Below, piece by piece: positions 54,918 to 63,534 of a stretch of DNA of 64,000 bases (positions are counted from its first letter, which is position 1; each line of letters begins with the position of its first letter). The notes under the pieces are model-generated. The model ran no database searches and was not told the origin of the DNA. It was given only the letters and a program-made list of their open reading frames with translations. Position numbers and translations under genes: made by a program. Source of the stretch: Sulfurimonas aquatica (lineage in GTDB: Bacteria > Campylobacterota > Campylobacteria > Campylobacterales > Sulfurimonadaceae); the NCBI RefSeq assembly GCF_017357825.1, contig NZ_CP046072.1, forward strand, positions 2,604,001 to 2,668,000, written 5' to 3'.

Positions 54918-55496
54918 ATGATAAATATCCCCTGCGTTATTTTCGCTGGTGGCAAAAGTTCAAGAATGAAAGAAGATAAATCTCTTCTTCCATTCCGAGG
55001 CTTTAGTACTCTAACAGAGTACCAATTCTCACATTTAAGTAAAATTTTCTCCACAGTATATATCTCATGTAAAGACAAAAAAAAGTTTGACTTTCAAGCA
55101 GATTTTTTAGAAGATGATAAAAACTCAACTCTGTTTGCTCCTACTCAAGGATTTCTTAGTAGCTTTAAAACATTAAGCACGGATAGGTTCTTTGTAATTA
55201 GTGTAGACTCTCCCTTCATAAATTTAGATATCATTGAAAAAATAATCTCTTCTGATAACAAAGATTGTGATGCAACAATAGCTAGAGTAAATTCAAATGT
55301 TCAGCCCTTGTGTGGAATCTATCATCGATCACTTAATGCAAAATTTCAAGATATGCTGCAAAACAATACTCATAAGCTTGGATTTCTACTACAAAACTCT
55401 CGAGTAAACTATGTTGACTTTAAAGATGAAAAACTATTTTTAAACTTAAACTATCCGCATGAATACCAAGAAGCACTAAAACTATCTACAAACTAA
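54918..55496 (+). CDS. mobA: Molybdenum cofactor guanylyltransferase MobA
   Basis: MobA attaches GMP to molybdopterin to make the guanine dinucleotide cofactor used by DMSO-reductase-type enzymes. The 192-residue protein begins with the nucleotide-binding signature [23 protein letters not shown] (cited by AGGKSSRM and DKSLLPF), and has VDSPF near residue 95 (metal-binding Asp) and PLCGIYHRS. The length fits. It starts the base after the OmpA-family stop, so it probably shares that transcript, and moaC follows 46 bases later behind its own TATAAT. SoxC of this window is a different Mo type (sulfite oxidase family) and would not need MobA. Confidence 0.9.
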
Positions 55497-55542: not shown

Positions 55543-56016
55543 ATGATGAATTTAACACATTTAGATGAAAATCAAAGACCAAAAATGGTTGATGTAAGCG
55601 ATAAGAATCAAACTACAAGAGTAGCAGTGGCAAGTGGAATTATAGAAATGAGCCAAGATGCTTATGATGCTATTGTTAATGAAAAAACAAAAAAAGGACC
55701 AGTATTACAAACTGCAGTTATTGCCGCAATTATGGGAGTTAAAAAAACTAGTGATTTAATTCCTATGTGTCACCCACTAAATCTTAGTGGAATTAATTGT
55801 GATGTTGATGAGCTTAGCTCCCTTCCAGGATTTAAGCTTACAGTAACTGCAAAGCTTACAGGTCAAACTGGTGTTGAAATGGAAGCATTAACAGGAACAA
55901 GTATCGGACTACTTACAATTTATGACATGGTAAAAGCCATAGATAAGGGTATGATTATACGAAATGTTCAACTAGAAGAGAAATCAGGAGGTAAAAATGG
56001 AGATTTTAAACGATAG
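55543..56016 (+). CDS. moaC: Cyclic pyranopterin monophosphate synthase MoaC
   Basis: MoaC catalyses the second half of the first step of molybdenum cofactor synthesis, forming cyclic pyranopterin monophosphate from the MoaA product. The 157-residue length is standard. Conserved parts are [12 protein letters not shown] (about 68-79), [19 protein letters not shown] (about 98-116, quoted in part) and MVKAIDKGM, with the catalytic Lys and Asp residues. Starts at ATG 55543 or 55546. It overlaps the DUF493 gene by 20 bases, and with mobA it forms a Mo-cofactor block upstream of soxC, a Mo enzyme. Confidence 0.95.
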
Positions 56017-58551: not shown

Positions 58552-59874
58552 ATGGATAATAAAAAATCTCAACAAGATAATGTTCTTGGCAGAAGAGACT
58601 TTTTCAGTAAAGTAGCTGCAATGTCAGCAACTGCTCTTGCTGGAACATCACTTTTAGCAAATGAATCAGCCGGAGAAGGCGATCCTGCCATAATGCATCA
58701 TACAAAATGGGGGCAAGTTTGGGGAGATCCTGTAACTACAAACCTATATGGTGTTCCTTCGCCGTATGAGCATAATAACACAAGAAGAAGTACTAAACTT
58801 CTTGCTTCTGGTAACTTTAGAGCATCAATTGCTGTAACACCTATACATGAATCAGAAGGAATTATTACTCCAAATGGTCTTTTCTTTTCTCGTTCACATG
58901 GTGGTACTGCACATGTTGATCCAAATGAATACCGTTTAATGATTCACGGTTTAGTGGAAAAGCCAATAGTATTAACTCTTGCTCAGCTTAAGCGCTATCC
59001 AAGTGTTACACGTACTCACTTTATTGAGTGTCCAGCAAATGGTGGACAAGAGTGGAGAGGGCCACAGTTCAACTCTGTACAATTTGCTAAAGGTTTTATG
59101 GCATCTGCTGAGTGGACTGGTGTTTACATTAAAACTATCCTTGAAGACTTAGGCCTTAAGCCAGAAGCACAATGGATGCTTGCTGAAGGTTCTGATAACT
59201 CTAAAATGGGAAGAACAGTGCCTGTAGATAAAGTAATGGACGATGCGATGATCGTTTGGGGACAAAATGGTGAAGCACTACGTCCTGAGCAAGGTTATCC
59301 AGTAAGATTACTTCTTCCAGGTTGGGAAGGTAACTTATGTGTTAAGTGGTTACGTAGATTAGAATTTGCTGTTGAACCTTGGTACTGTAAAGAAGAGACT
59401 TCTAAATATACAGATCTTAAGCCAACTGGTAAAGCTATCCAACACTTCTATGCAAATGAAGTTAACTCAACAGTTACTTCTCCATCTCCAGAGATTCCTT
59501 GGACTGACCTCAAAGAGGGCGATCAAGTAGAAATTGAAGGACTTGCATGGTCTGGTATGGGTACAATTACAACAGTAGATCTTTCATTTGATGGTGGTAG
59601 AAACTATGTTGAAGCACAAATCAAAGGTTTAGTATTACCAAAATCTTGGACTAGATGGTCATATATGTTTACTATACCAAAAGACTTTCAGGTGAATGGT
59701 AAGCAAATTATTCTTGCTTCACGTGCTATAGATGATGCTGGGTATATTCAGCCAACTATCGATGAAGAAATAGGTATCATGGGTGTAGAAGCTGTATATC
59801 ACAGAAATGCAGTTGAGACTTGGGAAGTAACAAAAGAAGGAAAGGTGAATCATGTTCAAATTAGAAGTATATAG
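58552..59874 (+). CDS. soxC: Sulfane dehydrogenase molybdenum subunit SoxC
   Basis: SoxC is the Mo-pterin subunit of SoxCD, which oxidises the sulfane sulfur bound to SoxY with release of six electrons. The 440-residue protein has a twin-arginine signal (GRRDFFSKVAAMSATALAG) for folded export, then a sulfite-oxidase-type domain with the Mo-binding Cys in HFIECPANGGQEW (about residue 164) and a dimerisation domain (about 290-430). It starts behind GGAGAG 6 bases before ATG. Its last 23 bases overlap soxD. With soxDYZ it is a separate cluster of the kind known in Sulfurimonas. Confidence 0.96.
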   Translation: MDNKKSQQDNVLGRRDFFSKVAAMSATALAGTSLLANESAGEGDPAIMHHTKWGQVWGDPVTTNLYGVPSPYEHNNTRRSTKLLASGNFRASIAVTPIHESEGIITPNGLFFSRSHGGTAHVDPNEYRLMIHGLVEKPIVLTLAQLKRYPSVTRTHFIECPANGGQEWRGPQFNSVQFAKGFMASAEWTGVYIKTILEDLGLKPEAQWMLAEGSDNSKMGRTVPVDKVMDDAMIVWGQNGEALRPEQGYPVRLLLPGWEGNLCVKWLRRLEFAVEPWYCKEETSKYTDLKPTGKAIQHFYANEVNSTVTSPSPEIPWTDLKEGDQVEIEGLAWSGMGTITTVDLSFDGGRNYVEAQIKGLVLPKSWTRWSYMFTIPKDFQVNGKQIILASRAIDDAGYIQPTIDEEIGIMGVEAVYHRNAVETWEVTKEGKVNHVQIRSI

Positions 59875-61024
59875 TAAATTAGTAGTTTCAAGCACAATAG
59901 CTGCTACTGTAGCACTATTTGCCGCTGGTTGTATGTCTGGAGGCACAGCTCCTTCTTCATCACCTGCATCTAGTGAACTAAGTATAGATGGTGGTGTTAC
60001 TTATCCAGTAGTTAATGGAAAAACTGGTCCTTACCATGTTATATCAGTTAGCGATGAGTATAAAAAACAAAATAATGGCCGTGTTCCTAATCATGCGGAA
60101 CTAAAAAAATGGAATACAGATGTTATGGCATCTTATGTGTACAATGAAGACCCAACAGCAGAAGGTTTACCAGAAGGTGAAGGTTCTGTTGAAGAAGGTG
60201 AAGCTTTATACGAGAAACAATGTGTAATGTGTCACGGTGACTTTGGTTCAGGTGGTGGTGGATATCCAGCACTTTCCAAAGGTAATGCATATGAATTACA
60301 AAAGACTTTAAAAAATAACAGATACAAAGACCCAGAAGCTGATGGTCCAGTTCGTCTTTTTGGTTCATACTGGCCTCAAGCTAGTACAATGTTCTGGTAT
60401 ATTAGAGATGGTATGCCTCACCCTAAATCTGACACATTAAGTGTTAATGAGACTTATGCACTGACTGCATACATGCTAAACATTAATGAAATGATAGTAG
60501 ATGGTGAAGAAGTAGATGATGAGTATGTACTTAATCGTGAGAAATTTTTAAAAATTAAAATGCCAAATGAAGATGGATTTGAACCAAACATTAAAGGTCC
60601 AAATACTTTACCTGGAGTAAAAGCATACTTTGGTAAAGCAGAAAACTTCGGTGCTAAAAATCTTAACCAAGGGGCAGAGCGCTGTATGACTGATTGTCAA
60701 AAACCAACTGCTAAAACTAAGTACATCCAAAATGGTGGTATCAAAGACTTTATTCCAGATATGAATACAGTAAGAGATTTACCAGTAAAAGAAGAAGTTG
60801 CAGTTGATCCAAAAGAAGTGTATGCAAATGCTTGTGCTATGTGTCACTCTGCATTCCTTTCACCAGGTGCACCTGAGTGGGCTGGCTATACTGCTAAAGG
60901 TATGGACAAAGTTTATGCTAATGGAATTAACGGAACTGAGGGTGGTATGCCTGCTAAAGGTGGAGCAAACCTTTCAGACAAAAACTTTAAAACTGTAGTT
61001 GACTATTTAGTTAACGGTAAATAA
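59852..61024 (+). CDS. soxD: SoxD, diheme cytochrome c of sulfane dehydrogenase
   Basis: SoxD takes electrons from SoxC. The 390-residue protein carries two haem-c motifs: CVMCH (about residue 124) and CAMCH (about 326), each with a downstream Met candidate. A CMTDC segment between them (about 276) may form a disulfide. The N-terminus has a lipobox (LFAAGC, Cys at 27), suggesting a lipid anchor instead of a free periplasmic protein. It overlaps soxC, and soxY follows after 17 bases. The first about 70 residues after the signal are low complexity, likely a linker. Confidence 0.92.
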   Translation: MFKLEVYSKLVVSSTIAATVALFAAGCMSGGTAPSSSPASSELSIDGGVTYPVVNGKTGPYHVISVSDEYKKQNNGRVPNHAELKKWNTDVMASYVYNEDPTAEGLPEGEGSVEEGEALYEKQCVMCHGDFGSGGGGYPALSKGNAYELQKTLKNNRYKDPEADGPVRLFGSYWPQASTMFWYIRDGMPHPKSDTLSVNETYALTAYMLNINEMIVDGEEVDDEYVLNREKFLKIKMPNEDGFEPNIKGPNTLPGVKAYFGKAENFGAKNLNQGAERCMTDCQKPTAKTKYIQNGGIKDFIPDMNTVRDLPVKEEVAVDPKEVYANACAMCHSAFLSPGAPEWAGYTAKGMDKVYANGINGTEGGMPAKGGANLSDKNFKTVVDYLVNGK

Positions 61025-61041
61025 AAAAAGAAGGAATTATT

Positions 61042-61494
61042 ATGGAAAGAAGACAATTTTTAAGTATGACTCTAGGTGCATTAGCTTTAGCTACTGTTCC
61101 TGCAAGTGTAAGAGCGGAAGATTTTAGAAAAACTAAGCCAACTGTATGGTCTGCACACACTGTTGATGATGCTATCAAAGCAATGTATGGCTCAACTAAC
61201 TTAGTTATGCAAGGCGTTACTTTAACGGCTCCAGATGTTGCAAGTAATGGTGGAGCAATCCCTGTTGATTTTGGTACTTCAATCGATGCTAAAACTATCG
61301 CAGTGTTTCAAGATGCAAATCCTGAAGCTGCTGTATGTGTTTATACATTAAATAAGTATAGTAAAAATGATTACTCTATAAAAATCAAAATGGCAAAATC
61401 AGGAACTATAACTATCGTTGCTGAAGGTAAAGATGGAAAGCTATACGCAGCTAAGAAAACTCTAGACGTTGCTCTTGGTGGATGTGAAGGTTAA
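61042..61494 (+). CDS. soxY: Sulfur-carrier protein SoxY
   Basis: SoxY carries thiosulfate-derived sulfur on a C-terminal cysteine. The 150-residue protein has a twin-arginine signal (ERRQFLSMTLGALALATVPASVRA), cleaved near residue 25, and an Ig-like SoxY domain. The usual C-terminal swinging arm GGCGG is here GGCEG; the carrier cysteine remains but the second last residue is Glu. This differs from the standard motif and may mark the SoxCD-linked variant. An AAGGAA ribosome-binding site is present. It is paired with soxZ 49 bases downstream. Confidence 0.93.
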   Translation: MERRQFLSMTLGALALATVPASVRAEDFRKTKPTVWSAHTVDDAIKAMYGSTNLVMQGVTLTAPDVASNGGAIPVDFGTSIDAKTIAVFQDANPEAAVCVYTLNKYSKNDYSIKIKMAKSGTITIVAEGKDGKLYAAKKTLDVALGGCEG

Positions 61495-61543: not shown

Positions 61544-61849
61544 ATGAAAGTAAAAGCAAAATTAAAAAATGGCGTTGTTAAAGTTAAGTGTATGGCTAAA
61601 CATGACATGACTACTTACAACCAGATGGAAAAGAAAACAGGTAATAGAGAAGATGCAAACTTTATTACATATATGACTGCTAAAATCGGTAATGAAACTG
61701 TATTTGAAGCTTCAACTTCTCAGTTTTTATCTAAAAACCCAATCTTCAAGTTTCAATTTCAAGGTATTGGCGCTAAAGGCGACAAACTTGTAATGGAATG
61801 GACAGACCGTAAAGGTAATAAAGGTAAAGGTAAAGGTAAAATTAAATAA
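61544..61849 (+). CDS. soxZ: SoxZ, partner of SoxY
   Basis: SoxZ forms the SoxYZ heterodimer and is a small immunoglobulin-like protein without cysteine function. The 101-residue protein has the family opening VKAKLKNGVVKVKCMAKHDM and the ITYMTAKIGNETVFEAST region, both cited in part. The C-terminus is a Lys/Gly repeat (KGNKGKGKGKIK) that looks like an extension beyond the typical end. It has no signal peptide and would be exported as a complex with Tat-bearing SoxY. A terminator hairpin follows. Confidence 0.93.
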   Translation: MKVKAKLKNGVVKVKCMAKHDMTTYNQMEKKTGNREDANFITYMTAKIGNETVFEASTSQFLSKNPIFKFQFQGIGAKGDKLVMEWTDRKGNKGKGKGKIK

Positions 61850-62049: not shown

Positions 62050-62502
62050 ATGACAGTACACTCACAAGGTAAAGTTATACAGCTTTATGTAACAAATAAA
62101 GATACTACTAAAGGTAGACAGACTACAAAAAAAGTACACTTAGATGAGAAGGGTATAATTGATGACAAGTTCTATAATAAAAACCTTCAGCGCTCTATAC
62201 TTATAGCCTCAATCGATAGTTACACTATAGCTAAAGAGAACGGTATAGAGATAGAAGATGGATCGCTAGGTGAAAACATTTTAATAGATATAAACCCCTA
62301 CCACCTTAAAAGTGGCGATACTCTCATAATAGGTAAAAATGAGCTAAAGATAACTCAAAACTGTACAATCTGTCAAGGATTATCTTCAGTTGACTCCAAG
62401 TTACCAAAACTACTAAAAAATGATAGAGGTATCTTTGCAAGATATGTAAAGGGTAATTCAGAAATAAAAATAGGTGATAGTGTCCTAATTACTAAATCTT
62501 AA
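62050..62502 (+). CDS. MOSC domain protein
   Basis: A 150-residue protein with a MOSC (MOCO sulfurase C-terminal) fold. The N-terminal strand VIQLYVTNKD, the segment GSLGENILID (matching the GDxGENI family pattern) and the conserved Cys in NCTICQG are present. MOSC domains bind sulfur or molybdenum-cofactor ligands and can move sulfur. Its position after soxCDYZ and near Mo-cofactor genes suggests a role in cofactor or sulfur handling, but it has its own upstream region. ATG 62050 follows AGAGA. Single-domain form; partner unknown. Confidence 0.85.
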   Translation: MTVHSQGKVIQLYVTNKDTTKGRQTTKKVHLDEKGIIDDKFYNKNLQRSILIASIDSYTIAKENGIEIEDGSLGENILIDINPYHLKSGDTLIIGKNELKITQNCTICQGLSSVDSKLPKLLKNDRGIFARYVKGNSEIKIGDSVLITKS

Positions 62503-62562: not shown

Positions 62563-63534
62563 ATGAAAAAAATAATATCACTGATAATGGCTGCATTAGT
62601 AGCACTATCAATAGTTGGTTGCTCAAGTGCAGAAGCTACTCCAGCAAAACCTAAAAAGATCCAAGATGTACAGGTATTCTCTACACCTAATGCAGATGGA
62701 AAAATAACAACTAAGACAATTGAAAAGGCTTTTGACTCAGTTGGTCTAAGTGTGCCAGGAAACAACGATATGAATAAGCCTTTTAGTCAAAGGTTTCCTA
62801 AGCTACACTACAAAGTTTATAACTTAGCAATGTATGTAAATAATGACTTAACATATAAGTTAATAAAAAAATATCCTAACTTTGGTGCTTTAACTCCGCT
62901 AACAATGTCAATATGGGAAGGTAAAGAAGGATGCATGAATGTAGCAACCCTAACTATTAACGGTATGGCAAGATCAACTGGTATTCCTCTTACAGACCCA
63001 GACTTAATTGCTTATGCTGCTTTAATACATAAAGGTTTAAAAACTGCAATGCCACATGGTAGTTTTAAAAACTTAGACCATACAGTTAAGTTTCCTAATA
63101 AGACGCTAGCGACTAACTTTGAAATGGAACTTGAACTTGATGGTGAATCCCCAGAGGACTTTATAGAAAACTTTGAAGCAGAATTTGAAGCAGAAATGGA
63201 GCCATTAGGTTTCTTGATGCCAAACTATTCTAACCTTAATGAAGAAATATTTGACGAAGCTGGTTATGAAGCATATGACTTTTATCATACATATTCAATC
63301 TGTAAATTTGATGTAATTTACCCAGTCTCTGAAAAACATCCTGAAGCAGGTGCTTGGGCTCCATGTTCATTTTATCTTTATAAGAAAAAAGGTGAGAATA
63401 AAATGTACTTAGGTTTCCTTTCAGTAGATAACTGGATTACAACAATCGGAATTACAGAAGATGAAGAAGGTGCTAAAAAACTTCGTGAGGCTCAAGGTTT
63501 TATTGAAAGAATTATTAATGAGATGACTGAGTAA
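62563..63534 (+). CDS. Putative lipoprotein, DUF302-like region
   Basis: A 323-residue exported protein with a lipobox signal (ALSIVGC, Cys at 20). The middle contains LIKKYPNFGALTPLTMSIWE and NGMARSTGIPLTDPDL, which look like the DUF302-type conserved region in its exported form. A Glu/Asp-rich segment (about residues 190-215) is probably a flexible linker. The C-terminal half has several cysteines (YSICKFDV, APCSFYLY). The next gene (63640) encodes a related N-terminus, so this is a tandem pair. Function unknown; proximity to sox may mean a periplasmic sulfur role. Confidence 0.65.
   Translation: MKKIISLIMAALVALSIVGCSSAEATPAKPKKIQDVQVFSTPNADGKITTKTIEKAFDSVGLSVPGNNDMNKPFSQRFPKLHYKVYNLAMYVNNDLTYKLIKKYPNFGALTPLTMSIWEGKEGCMNVATLTINGMARSTGIPLTDPDLIAYAALIHKGLKTAMPHGSFKNLDHTVKFPNKTLATNFEMELELDGESPEDFIENFEAEFEAEMEPLGFLMPNYSNLNEEIFDEAGYEAYDFYHTYSICKFDVIYPVSEKHPEAGAWAPCSFYLYKKKGENKMYLGFLSVDNWITTIGITEDEEGAKKLREAQGFIERIINEMTE

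Follow-up and report, generated by a model that had tools for sequence, protein, structure and literature searches.

In Paracoccus, the genes for sulfur oxidation form a single cluster, soxXYZABCD, and the carrier cysteine of SoxY lies in a C-terminal GGCGG arm. Campylobacterota are already known to possess two kinds of SoxY (PMC5904459). One, SoxY-I, is encoded in soxXYZAB clusters; the other, the SoxY-II of Pjevac 2018, is encoded in soxCDY2Z2(H) units of Sulfurimonas and Sulfurovum that are detached from soxABXY1Z1. In the accessible parts of the literature, SoxY-II is described as the more diverse carrier and as the sole epsilonproteobacterial SoxY detected in two vent metaproteomes (PMC5904459), while soxCDY2Z2 is tied to the oxidation of elemental sulfur (S0) or sulfide (PMC10045233; PMC9122950). 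Its expression was higher with S0 than with thiosulfate in Sulfurovum indicum (PMC10045233), and in Black Sea Sulfurimonas it was expressed like sqr and exceeded soxXYZAB by about two orders of magnitude (PMC9122950). For sulfate release with soxCDYZ alone, these sources either propose SoxH, a metallo-beta-lactamase, as the sulfate-releasing hydrolase of soxCDYZH or call the step unresolved (PMC9122950; PMC10045233). Here we analysed a detached soxCDYZ unit of Sulfurimonas aquatica, located in a stretch of 64,000 nucleotides (contig NZ_CP046072.1, positions 2,604,001 to 2,668,000) hereafter called the window, with a focus on its SoxY, which ends in GGCEG. In a survey of the phylum, SoxY from such units fell into two types: GGCGG carriers came with soxH, GGCEG carriers did not.

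The soxC-soxD-soxY-soxZ unit runs from the soxC start at 58552 to the soxZ end at 61849, counted from the first nucleotide of the window (Table 1). It comprises the same genes as the soxCDY2Z2 units above and is likewise detached from soxABXY1Z1. However, as far as the accessible text describes them, the units of PMC9122950 and PMC10045233 carry soxH beside soxCDYZ, whereas the window unit has no adjacent soxH and the arm GGCEG. Its SoxC, SoxD (2xts), SoxY and SoxZ are homologous to those of Paracoccus, which differs, apart from the single cluster and the GGCGG arm, in a SoxD with a cleavable signal. SoxC passes the equivalog cut-off of TIGR04555. The soxD start overlaps the soxC end, and the product is a di-haem protein related to Paracoccus SoxD (2xts_B) and encoded beside soxC. 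The window SoxY resembles solved SoxY chains, passes Pfam PF13501 (84.8 bits versus a gathering cut-off of 28.4) and has the C-terminal GGC with the carrier cysteine (61477-61485), which is Cys in all 151 aligned rows of that column.

The initial annotation had read the SoxY arm as GGCEG, with Glu in place of a Gly of the canonical GGCGG. A pattern search agreed: the protein ends in VALGGCEG, and the window has a single match to the GGCEG-stop DNA pattern (61477-61494), against none in 100 shuffles. The deviation is real in comparison with Alphaproteobacteria, as all five SoxY that we chose from 12 plasmid hits and translated end in GGCGG. Since the score of the window SoxY (108.1 bits) stays below the cut-off of 125 of TIGR04488, a model whose name includes the GGCGG arm that is also absent here, automatic annotation may miss GGCEG carriers. 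Among GGCEG SoxY, the number of cysteines per protein ranges from 1 to 4, and the window SoxY has an extra internal Cys.

We surveyed 397 Campylobacterota genomes, of which 119 contained SoxY among the matches listed and 93 a SoxD relative (E up to 1e-20). Besides SoxY protein matches, the GGCEG arm was sought by DNA pattern; this matched in 38 of the 397 genomes, part of these by chance, with matches in several SoxY-less genomes and some for a reversed control pattern. From 140 fetched stretches and 16 named loci, 151 SoxY with a GGC arm were classified, with SoxXAB-linked and solitary SoxY fetched from a selection of the places listed. The SoxY, SoxC, SoxD and SoxZ sets exclude L001-L004, which are copies of loci of the S. 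aquatica genome (the L002 locus is represented by L120), and L154, a match without a GGC end, was excluded from the SoxY alignment beforehand. The soxCD loci L006, L029, L076, L078 and L103 have no complete SoxY and were excluded from the arm counts.

The arm followed the gene context. In soxXYZAB clusters without soxCD it was GGCG, one residue shorter, in 34 of 34 fetched clusters, and in combined soxCDXYZAB clusters it was GGCGG in 43 of 43. Detached soxCDYZ units carried GGCEG in 46 and GGCGG in 16 cases; solitary soxYZ pairs carried GGCEG in seven and GGCG in five. Thus, the comparison of C-termini across contexts that the initial annotation had proposed separates SoxXAB-only from SoxCD-linked SoxY. 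GGCEG is not, as had been considered, common to all SoxY of the phylum. It is confined to one lineage, which spans five survey families (f1, f4, f7, f9 and f10).

We then asked how often the arm had changed, using quick trees with support by the Shimodaira-Hasegawa-like approximate likelihood ratio test (SH-aLRT) only. Because two arm changes, the minimum for three states, suffice on a SoxY tree from which the arm columns had been removed, GGCEG fits a single origin. The GGCEG clade comprises 53 rows (SH-aLRT 89) and lies inside the SoxCD-linked group under midpoint rooting. The SoxD tree (109 rows, without the first 44 residues) needs one change, and a branch with an SH-aLRT of 99 separates 48 GGCEG-linked rows from the rest; two of these rows, L006 and L029, come without SoxY, and their group labels, like those of L076 and L078, were assigned by hand. 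Since GGCGG is present both in combined clusters and in Alphaproteobacteria, it is probably the older state, and the direction of change was probably from GGCGG to GGCEG.

Within the clade, Glu149 is kept in 53 of 53 SoxY at pairwise identities down to 39%, and it is one of 22 invariant positions among 150. Its codon is GAA in 43 and GAG in 10 genes. Judged from these alignments, Glu149 looks to be held by selection. We next determined diagnostic positions, defined by a residue shared by 90% or more of the GGCEG rows but by no more than 10% of the GGCGG rows. Only two were found in SoxY, namely Ala144 and Glu149, and both fall within the arm or next to it. SoxC has six, including Asn88 (for Asp) and Tyr192; SoxD has three, including His190 beside a Met-Pro that is common with Paracoccus; and SoxZ has one. 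The positions in SoxC, SoxD and SoxZ are candidates for changes matching that of the arm.

The second difference between the two kinds concerns soxH. It lies directly 3' of soxZ, at a distance of at most 155 bp, in all 16 GGCGG soxCDYZ units. In contrast, a SoxH-profile match was found near one of the 45 GGCEG units (of 46) for which 1.4 kb or more of sequence 3' of the unit was available; L011, with 20 bp downstream only, was set aside, and L032, which has no recognised soxZ, was judged from soxY. The single match (L041) lies 802 bp away and is a divergent metallo-beta-lactamase, 23% identical to the SoxH of the S. aquatica genome. In the window, soxH is not next to soxZ and a MOSC-domain gene is found there instead; the one SoxH that a profile search detected in this genome is located at C1:1605327 in the soxXYZAB region. 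Some GGCGG units (e.g. L052 and L062) have the order soxCDYZ-H-fam277-MOSC-DUF302, where fam277 is a family described below, and many GGCEG units have the order soxCDYZ-fam277-MOSC-DUF302 or soxCDYZ-MOSC-DUF302, that is, without H. Of the 43 combined clusters, 41 include soxB in the locus, and the remaining ones (L105 and L111) end at a contig edge.

At the level of whole genomes, we searched for SoxB (E 1e-60), SoxA (E 1e-10) and SoxH (E 1e-25), with rechecks of SoxB by TIGR04486 and of SoxH at E 1e-5. Among the 31 GGCEG survey genomes, 20 contain SoxB and SoxA and 11 contain neither. No SoxH was found in these 11 genomes, neither at E 1e-25 nor at E 1e-5, the latter a threshold at which five of five comparison genomes gave a match. 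Each of the 11 has one SoxY among the matches listed, ending in GGCEG, and two (G319 and G163) are single contigs. All eight SoxB-less GGCGG soxCDYZ genomes, on the other hand, have SoxH. Because the species are related, these counts describe a pattern and not independent events.

On balance, we lean towards reading the window unit as a dedicated, hydrolase-less SoxCD-SoxY2Z2 module, whose GGCEG arm fits a single origin, was kept in every clade member surveyed and would be suited to a SoxCD-only cycle. In such a cycle, sulfane sulfur from the oxidation of polysulfide, S0 or sulfide would be loaded onto Cys148 without SoxAX. The outer sulfur would be oxidised by SoxC at its molybdenum centre, and the electrons would be passed on via SoxD, which in S. 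aquatica is probably tethered to a membrane by a lipid on Cys27. The oxidised sulfur would then leave without a dedicated SoxB or SoxH, and the Glu beside the sulfur-bearing Cys would fit the arm to this cycle. Glu149 may aid release, keep the arm off SoxAX and SoxB, or do no more than tune its fit to SoxC.

Several points weigh against this reading. As one origin of Glu is one event, its association with a missing soxH could be a coincidence of descent, and drift on the same branch would also yield the diagnostic positions of SoxC, SoxD and SoxZ. SoxB is retained in 20 of the 31 GGCEG genomes and could serve the carrier in trans; most of these genomes also have SoxH elsewhere. Two of the 11 genomes without SoxB gave weak SoxB-model matches (124 and 103 bits versus a cut-off of 550), as did 10 of the 14 controls (genomes such as E. 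coli), and the SoxH-less genomes may use a hydrolase that is invisible to these searches. None of the seven solitary soxYZ copies with GGCEG has soxCD as a neighbour. Finally, S. xiamenensis and S. lithotrophica, which have soxCDYZ without soxABXYZ, are said in the accessible text of PMC7952632 to turn thiosulfate into sulfur. This would count against the proposed module, since thiosulfate oxidation is not expected of a unit to which thiosulfate is no substrate.

A somewhat unlikely alternative is that the Glu is a neutral clade marker, fixed once in the ancestor of this SoxCD lineage and merely inherited, with the absence of SoxH unrelated. The single origin means that there is no independent replication, and the last residues of the arm vary elsewhere too (GGCG, GGCGG). 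However, a neutral residue sits poorly with the retention of Glu in every clade member despite the divergence of SoxY and the switching between GAA and GAG, and with the position of both SoxY diagnostic residues in or beside the arm.

The Glu could instead serve as insulation, its extra negative charge barring SoxY2Z2 from the channels of SoxAX and SoxB, which would let two Sox cycles share a periplasm without interfering with each other. In the 24 genomes for which SoxY of both soxXYZAB and soxCDYZ was fetched, the arms do differ (GGCG versus GGCEG in 16, GGCG versus GGCGG in eight), and one genome (G218) combines a GGCGG soxCDXYZA cluster with a GGCEG soxCDYZ unit. But insulation leaves unexplained why Glu is retained in the 11 genomes without SoxA or SoxB, and detached GGCGG units coexist with SoxXAB without any Glu (e.g. 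in G328, G333 and G343). We regard this explanation, too, as somewhat improbable.

More specific is the proposal that Glu149 stands in for the hydrolase: its carboxylate beside Cys148 would help water or a thiol to release the oxidised sulfur, and neither SoxB nor SoxH would be needed. This would account for the distribution of both enzymes, with a linked SoxB (41 of 43, the two truncated loci aside) or SoxH (16 of 16) accompanying GGCGG and neither accompanying GGCEG apart from the divergent match, and for SoxH being present in eight of eight SoxB-less GGCGG genomes versus none of 11 with GGCEG. Yet all this would reflect one event on the tree rather than independent counts, and 20 of the 31 GGCEG genomes have SoxB elsewhere; we consider the proposal unlikely. 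The same low probability applies to its evolutionary form, in which, after detachment from soxB, one lineage retained GGCGG and gained SoxH, and the other placed a carboxylate beside the Cys, making GGCEG a self-releasing carrier. If true, SoxC, SoxD, SoxY and SoxZ would form a minimal four-protein Sox pathway without SoxAX, SoxB or SoxH, in which the carrier aids the release of its own product.

Release might also require no hydrolysis if the product of the GGCEG cycle were sulfite (or thiosulfate), to be finished by a SorA-type sulfite dehydrogenase. SorA-like proteins distinct from SoxC occur in 21 of 31 GGCEG versus six of 16 GGCGG soxCDYZ genomes, and in six of the 11 hydrolase-less versus one of the eight SoxB-less GGCGG genomes (G195 was counted at 232 bits, the others at more than 400). 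These differences are small and uncorrected for kinship, no SorA-like match beyond SoxC was found in five of the 11 hydrolase-less genomes, and the model cut-off of 600 bits is reached by none of the 47 genomes, which makes this explanation quite doubtful. That the SoxD lipobox defines the unit, SoxCD being membrane-anchored because it serves it, is very improbable and largely refuted: although the window SoxD and its five nearest tree rows carry the lipobox, it is missing from 16 of 46 GGCEG units, present outside them and subject to 11 changes on the tree.

The lipobox itself was noted correctly. The N-terminus of SoxD reads MFKLEVYSKLVVSSTIAATVALFAAGC-MSGG, and Cys27, at the end of LFAAGC, follows a basic n-region and a hydrophobic stretch and fits the lipobox rule, which is of the PROSITE type. 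The same rule matched 81 of 1,991 N-termini of non-Sox open reading frames (ORFs) in the fetched loci; as true lipoproteins are among these, chance matches amount to about 4% or less. An alternative start, which the initial annotation had named as a possible objection, does not remove the lipobox. There is no ATG, GTG or TTG codon between Met1 and Cys27, and the next possible start, Met28, is ruled out because it would remove the whole signal of a c-type cytochrome that needs export. The claimed deviation from Paracoccus was found as well, with SoxD of Paracoccus ferrooxidans having a cleavable AMA-type signal and no lipobox. Across contexts, the lipobox is present in 30 of 46 GGCEG soxCDYZ units, seven of 16 GGCGG units and 11 of 43 combined clusters. 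Given its presence in all three SoxCD contexts and its 11 changes on the SoxD tree, it is not a mark of the unit but an evolutionarily labile trait, separate from the specialisation. Thus, the suggested specialised SoxCDYZ unit stands in so far as GGCEG marks detached units without soxH, whereas the lipobox is no part of it. Because the window SoxD and its five nearest relatives all carry the motif, lipid-anchored SoxCD is a fair prediction here, and membrane anchoring in this group is plausible. A possible lipobox was also seen in SoxB of the S. aquatica genome (L121:3826-5586), whose twin-arginine signal ends in TAGC; the Cys at that site is absent from three other soxXYZAB SoxB and 11 combined-cluster SoxB that we examined.

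The genes around the unit recur at other loci. Of the detached soxCDYZ units, 56 of 62 (40 of 46 with GGCEG, 16 of 16 with GGCGG) have a MOSC homologue at a distance of up to 4 kb, either downstream in the same orientation or upstream in the opposite one. A link of this gene with SoxCD through molybdenum is our guess. A DUF302 homologue is found within 4 kb of 33 of the 46 GGCEG units, moaC within the same distance of 23 and a MobA-like gene of 20. Another DUF302 homologue is encoded three genes from soxH in the soxXYZAB region of the S. aquatica genome (L121:1-492). DUF302 also appears in the annotation of a Methylosinus plasmid (L165), in its soxZ-soxB-dsrE region. The family fam277 (L117:8318-9151 and homologues; the representative has 277 amino acids) is predicted to be secreted and occurs within 4 kb of 25 of 46 GGCEG units, six of 16 GGCGG units and 27 of 43 combined clusters. 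We considered these linked genes as replacements of SoxH and rejected them, as MOSC, DUF302 and fam277 also stand beside soxH in some GGCGG units and no tested family is present in all hydrolase-less units.

Table 1. Features of the soxCDYZ unit and its surroundings in the window.
Feature	Position	Strand	Evidence
MobA-like gene, upstream of unit	54918-55496		Pfam
moaC, molybdenum cofactor synthesis, upstream of unit	55543..56016	+	Pfam
soxC, molybdenum sulfane dehydrogenase subunit, twin-arginine signal	58552..59874	+	TIGR04555 561.6 bits versus cut-off 420; best solved relative 2xts_A
SoxC Asn88	58813-58815	+	44/45 GGCEG-linked SoxC, one gap
SoxC Tyr192	59125-59127	+	45/45 GGCEG-linked SoxC
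soxD, di-haem cytochrome c (CVMCH, CAMCH), 390 aa, ATG start	59852..61024	+	Pfam cytochrome c domains; 2xts_B E 1.7e-24
LFAAGC lipobox of SoxD, Cys27 at 59930-59932	59915..59932	+	Sequence; lipobox rule and survey
SoxD His190	60419-60421	+	46/46 GGCEG-linked SoxD
soxY (SoxY2), sulfur carrier subunit, 150 aa	61042..61494	+	Pfam SoxY 84.8 bits; TIGR04488 108.1 bits, below cut-off 125
GGCEG-stop carrier arm: sulfur-binding Cys148, then Glu149, Gly150	61477..61494	+	Pattern search; survey
soxZ (SoxZ2)	61544..61849	+	TIGR04490 95.2 bits versus cut-off 76
MOSC-domain gene, next after soxZ	62050..62502	+	Pfam PF03473
DUF302 gene, lipoprotein-like start (VGC), downstream of unit	62563..63534	+	Pfam PF03625
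Second DUF302-like gene, start only in window; continues to 64656 in L161	63640..64000	+	Neighbourhood count

Besides the window copy, the S. aquatica genome encodes a SoxY in a complete soxXYZAB cluster (L121) and a third in a second GGCEG soxYZ at C1:563.6 kb. The latter (L120:6708-8308; G000:C1 about 562700-564300) encodes a SoxY 98% identical to that of the window and sits behind two small genes, one for a cytochrome c. Solitary soxYZ copies in seven survey genomes were near-identical to a copy from a soxCDYZ unit in the genome itself or in its genus, and in G326 identical over the tree columns, which suggests that solitary GGCEG copies stem from recent duplication or gene conversion. In G282 (C3:380305-380506), two GGCEG-stop matches lie 184 bp apart and four SoxY are present among the matches listed, suggesting a tandem or partial soxY duplication. 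One contig from a metagenome bin (L016) bears the title 'Helicobacter pylori PMSS1', which is probably wrong; its GGCEG soxCDYZ unit closely resembles one from an Arcobacteraceae bin (L017). Viral copies of the window SoxY were not found in one scan with this single protein, the reach of which is limited to close relatives.

That arm substitutions tune substrate use is an idea shared with a study of swinging-arm signatures in symbiont SoxY, which also mentions a divergent SoxY of S. denitrificans (PMC11237559). However, its accessible text concerns the VTIGGC motif and mentions neither a Glu after the Cys nor a correlation with SoxH. In the literature we searched, with partial coverage, we found no mention of GGCEG together with SoxY and no earlier description of the three-way arm pattern or its fit with soxB, soxH or neither; priority is not certain. 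The expression data cited above would reach GGCEG units only by extrapolation, because the studies, in their accessible parts, concern soxCDYZH or do not give the arm.

Since the carriers of soxCDYZ units fall into two types, the physiology of strains with SoxH should not be transferred untested to a GGCEG strain. This distinction singles out 11 genomes for which the searches yielded neither SoxB nor SoxH. One residue and one neighbouring gene predict which species use SoxH and which need something else.

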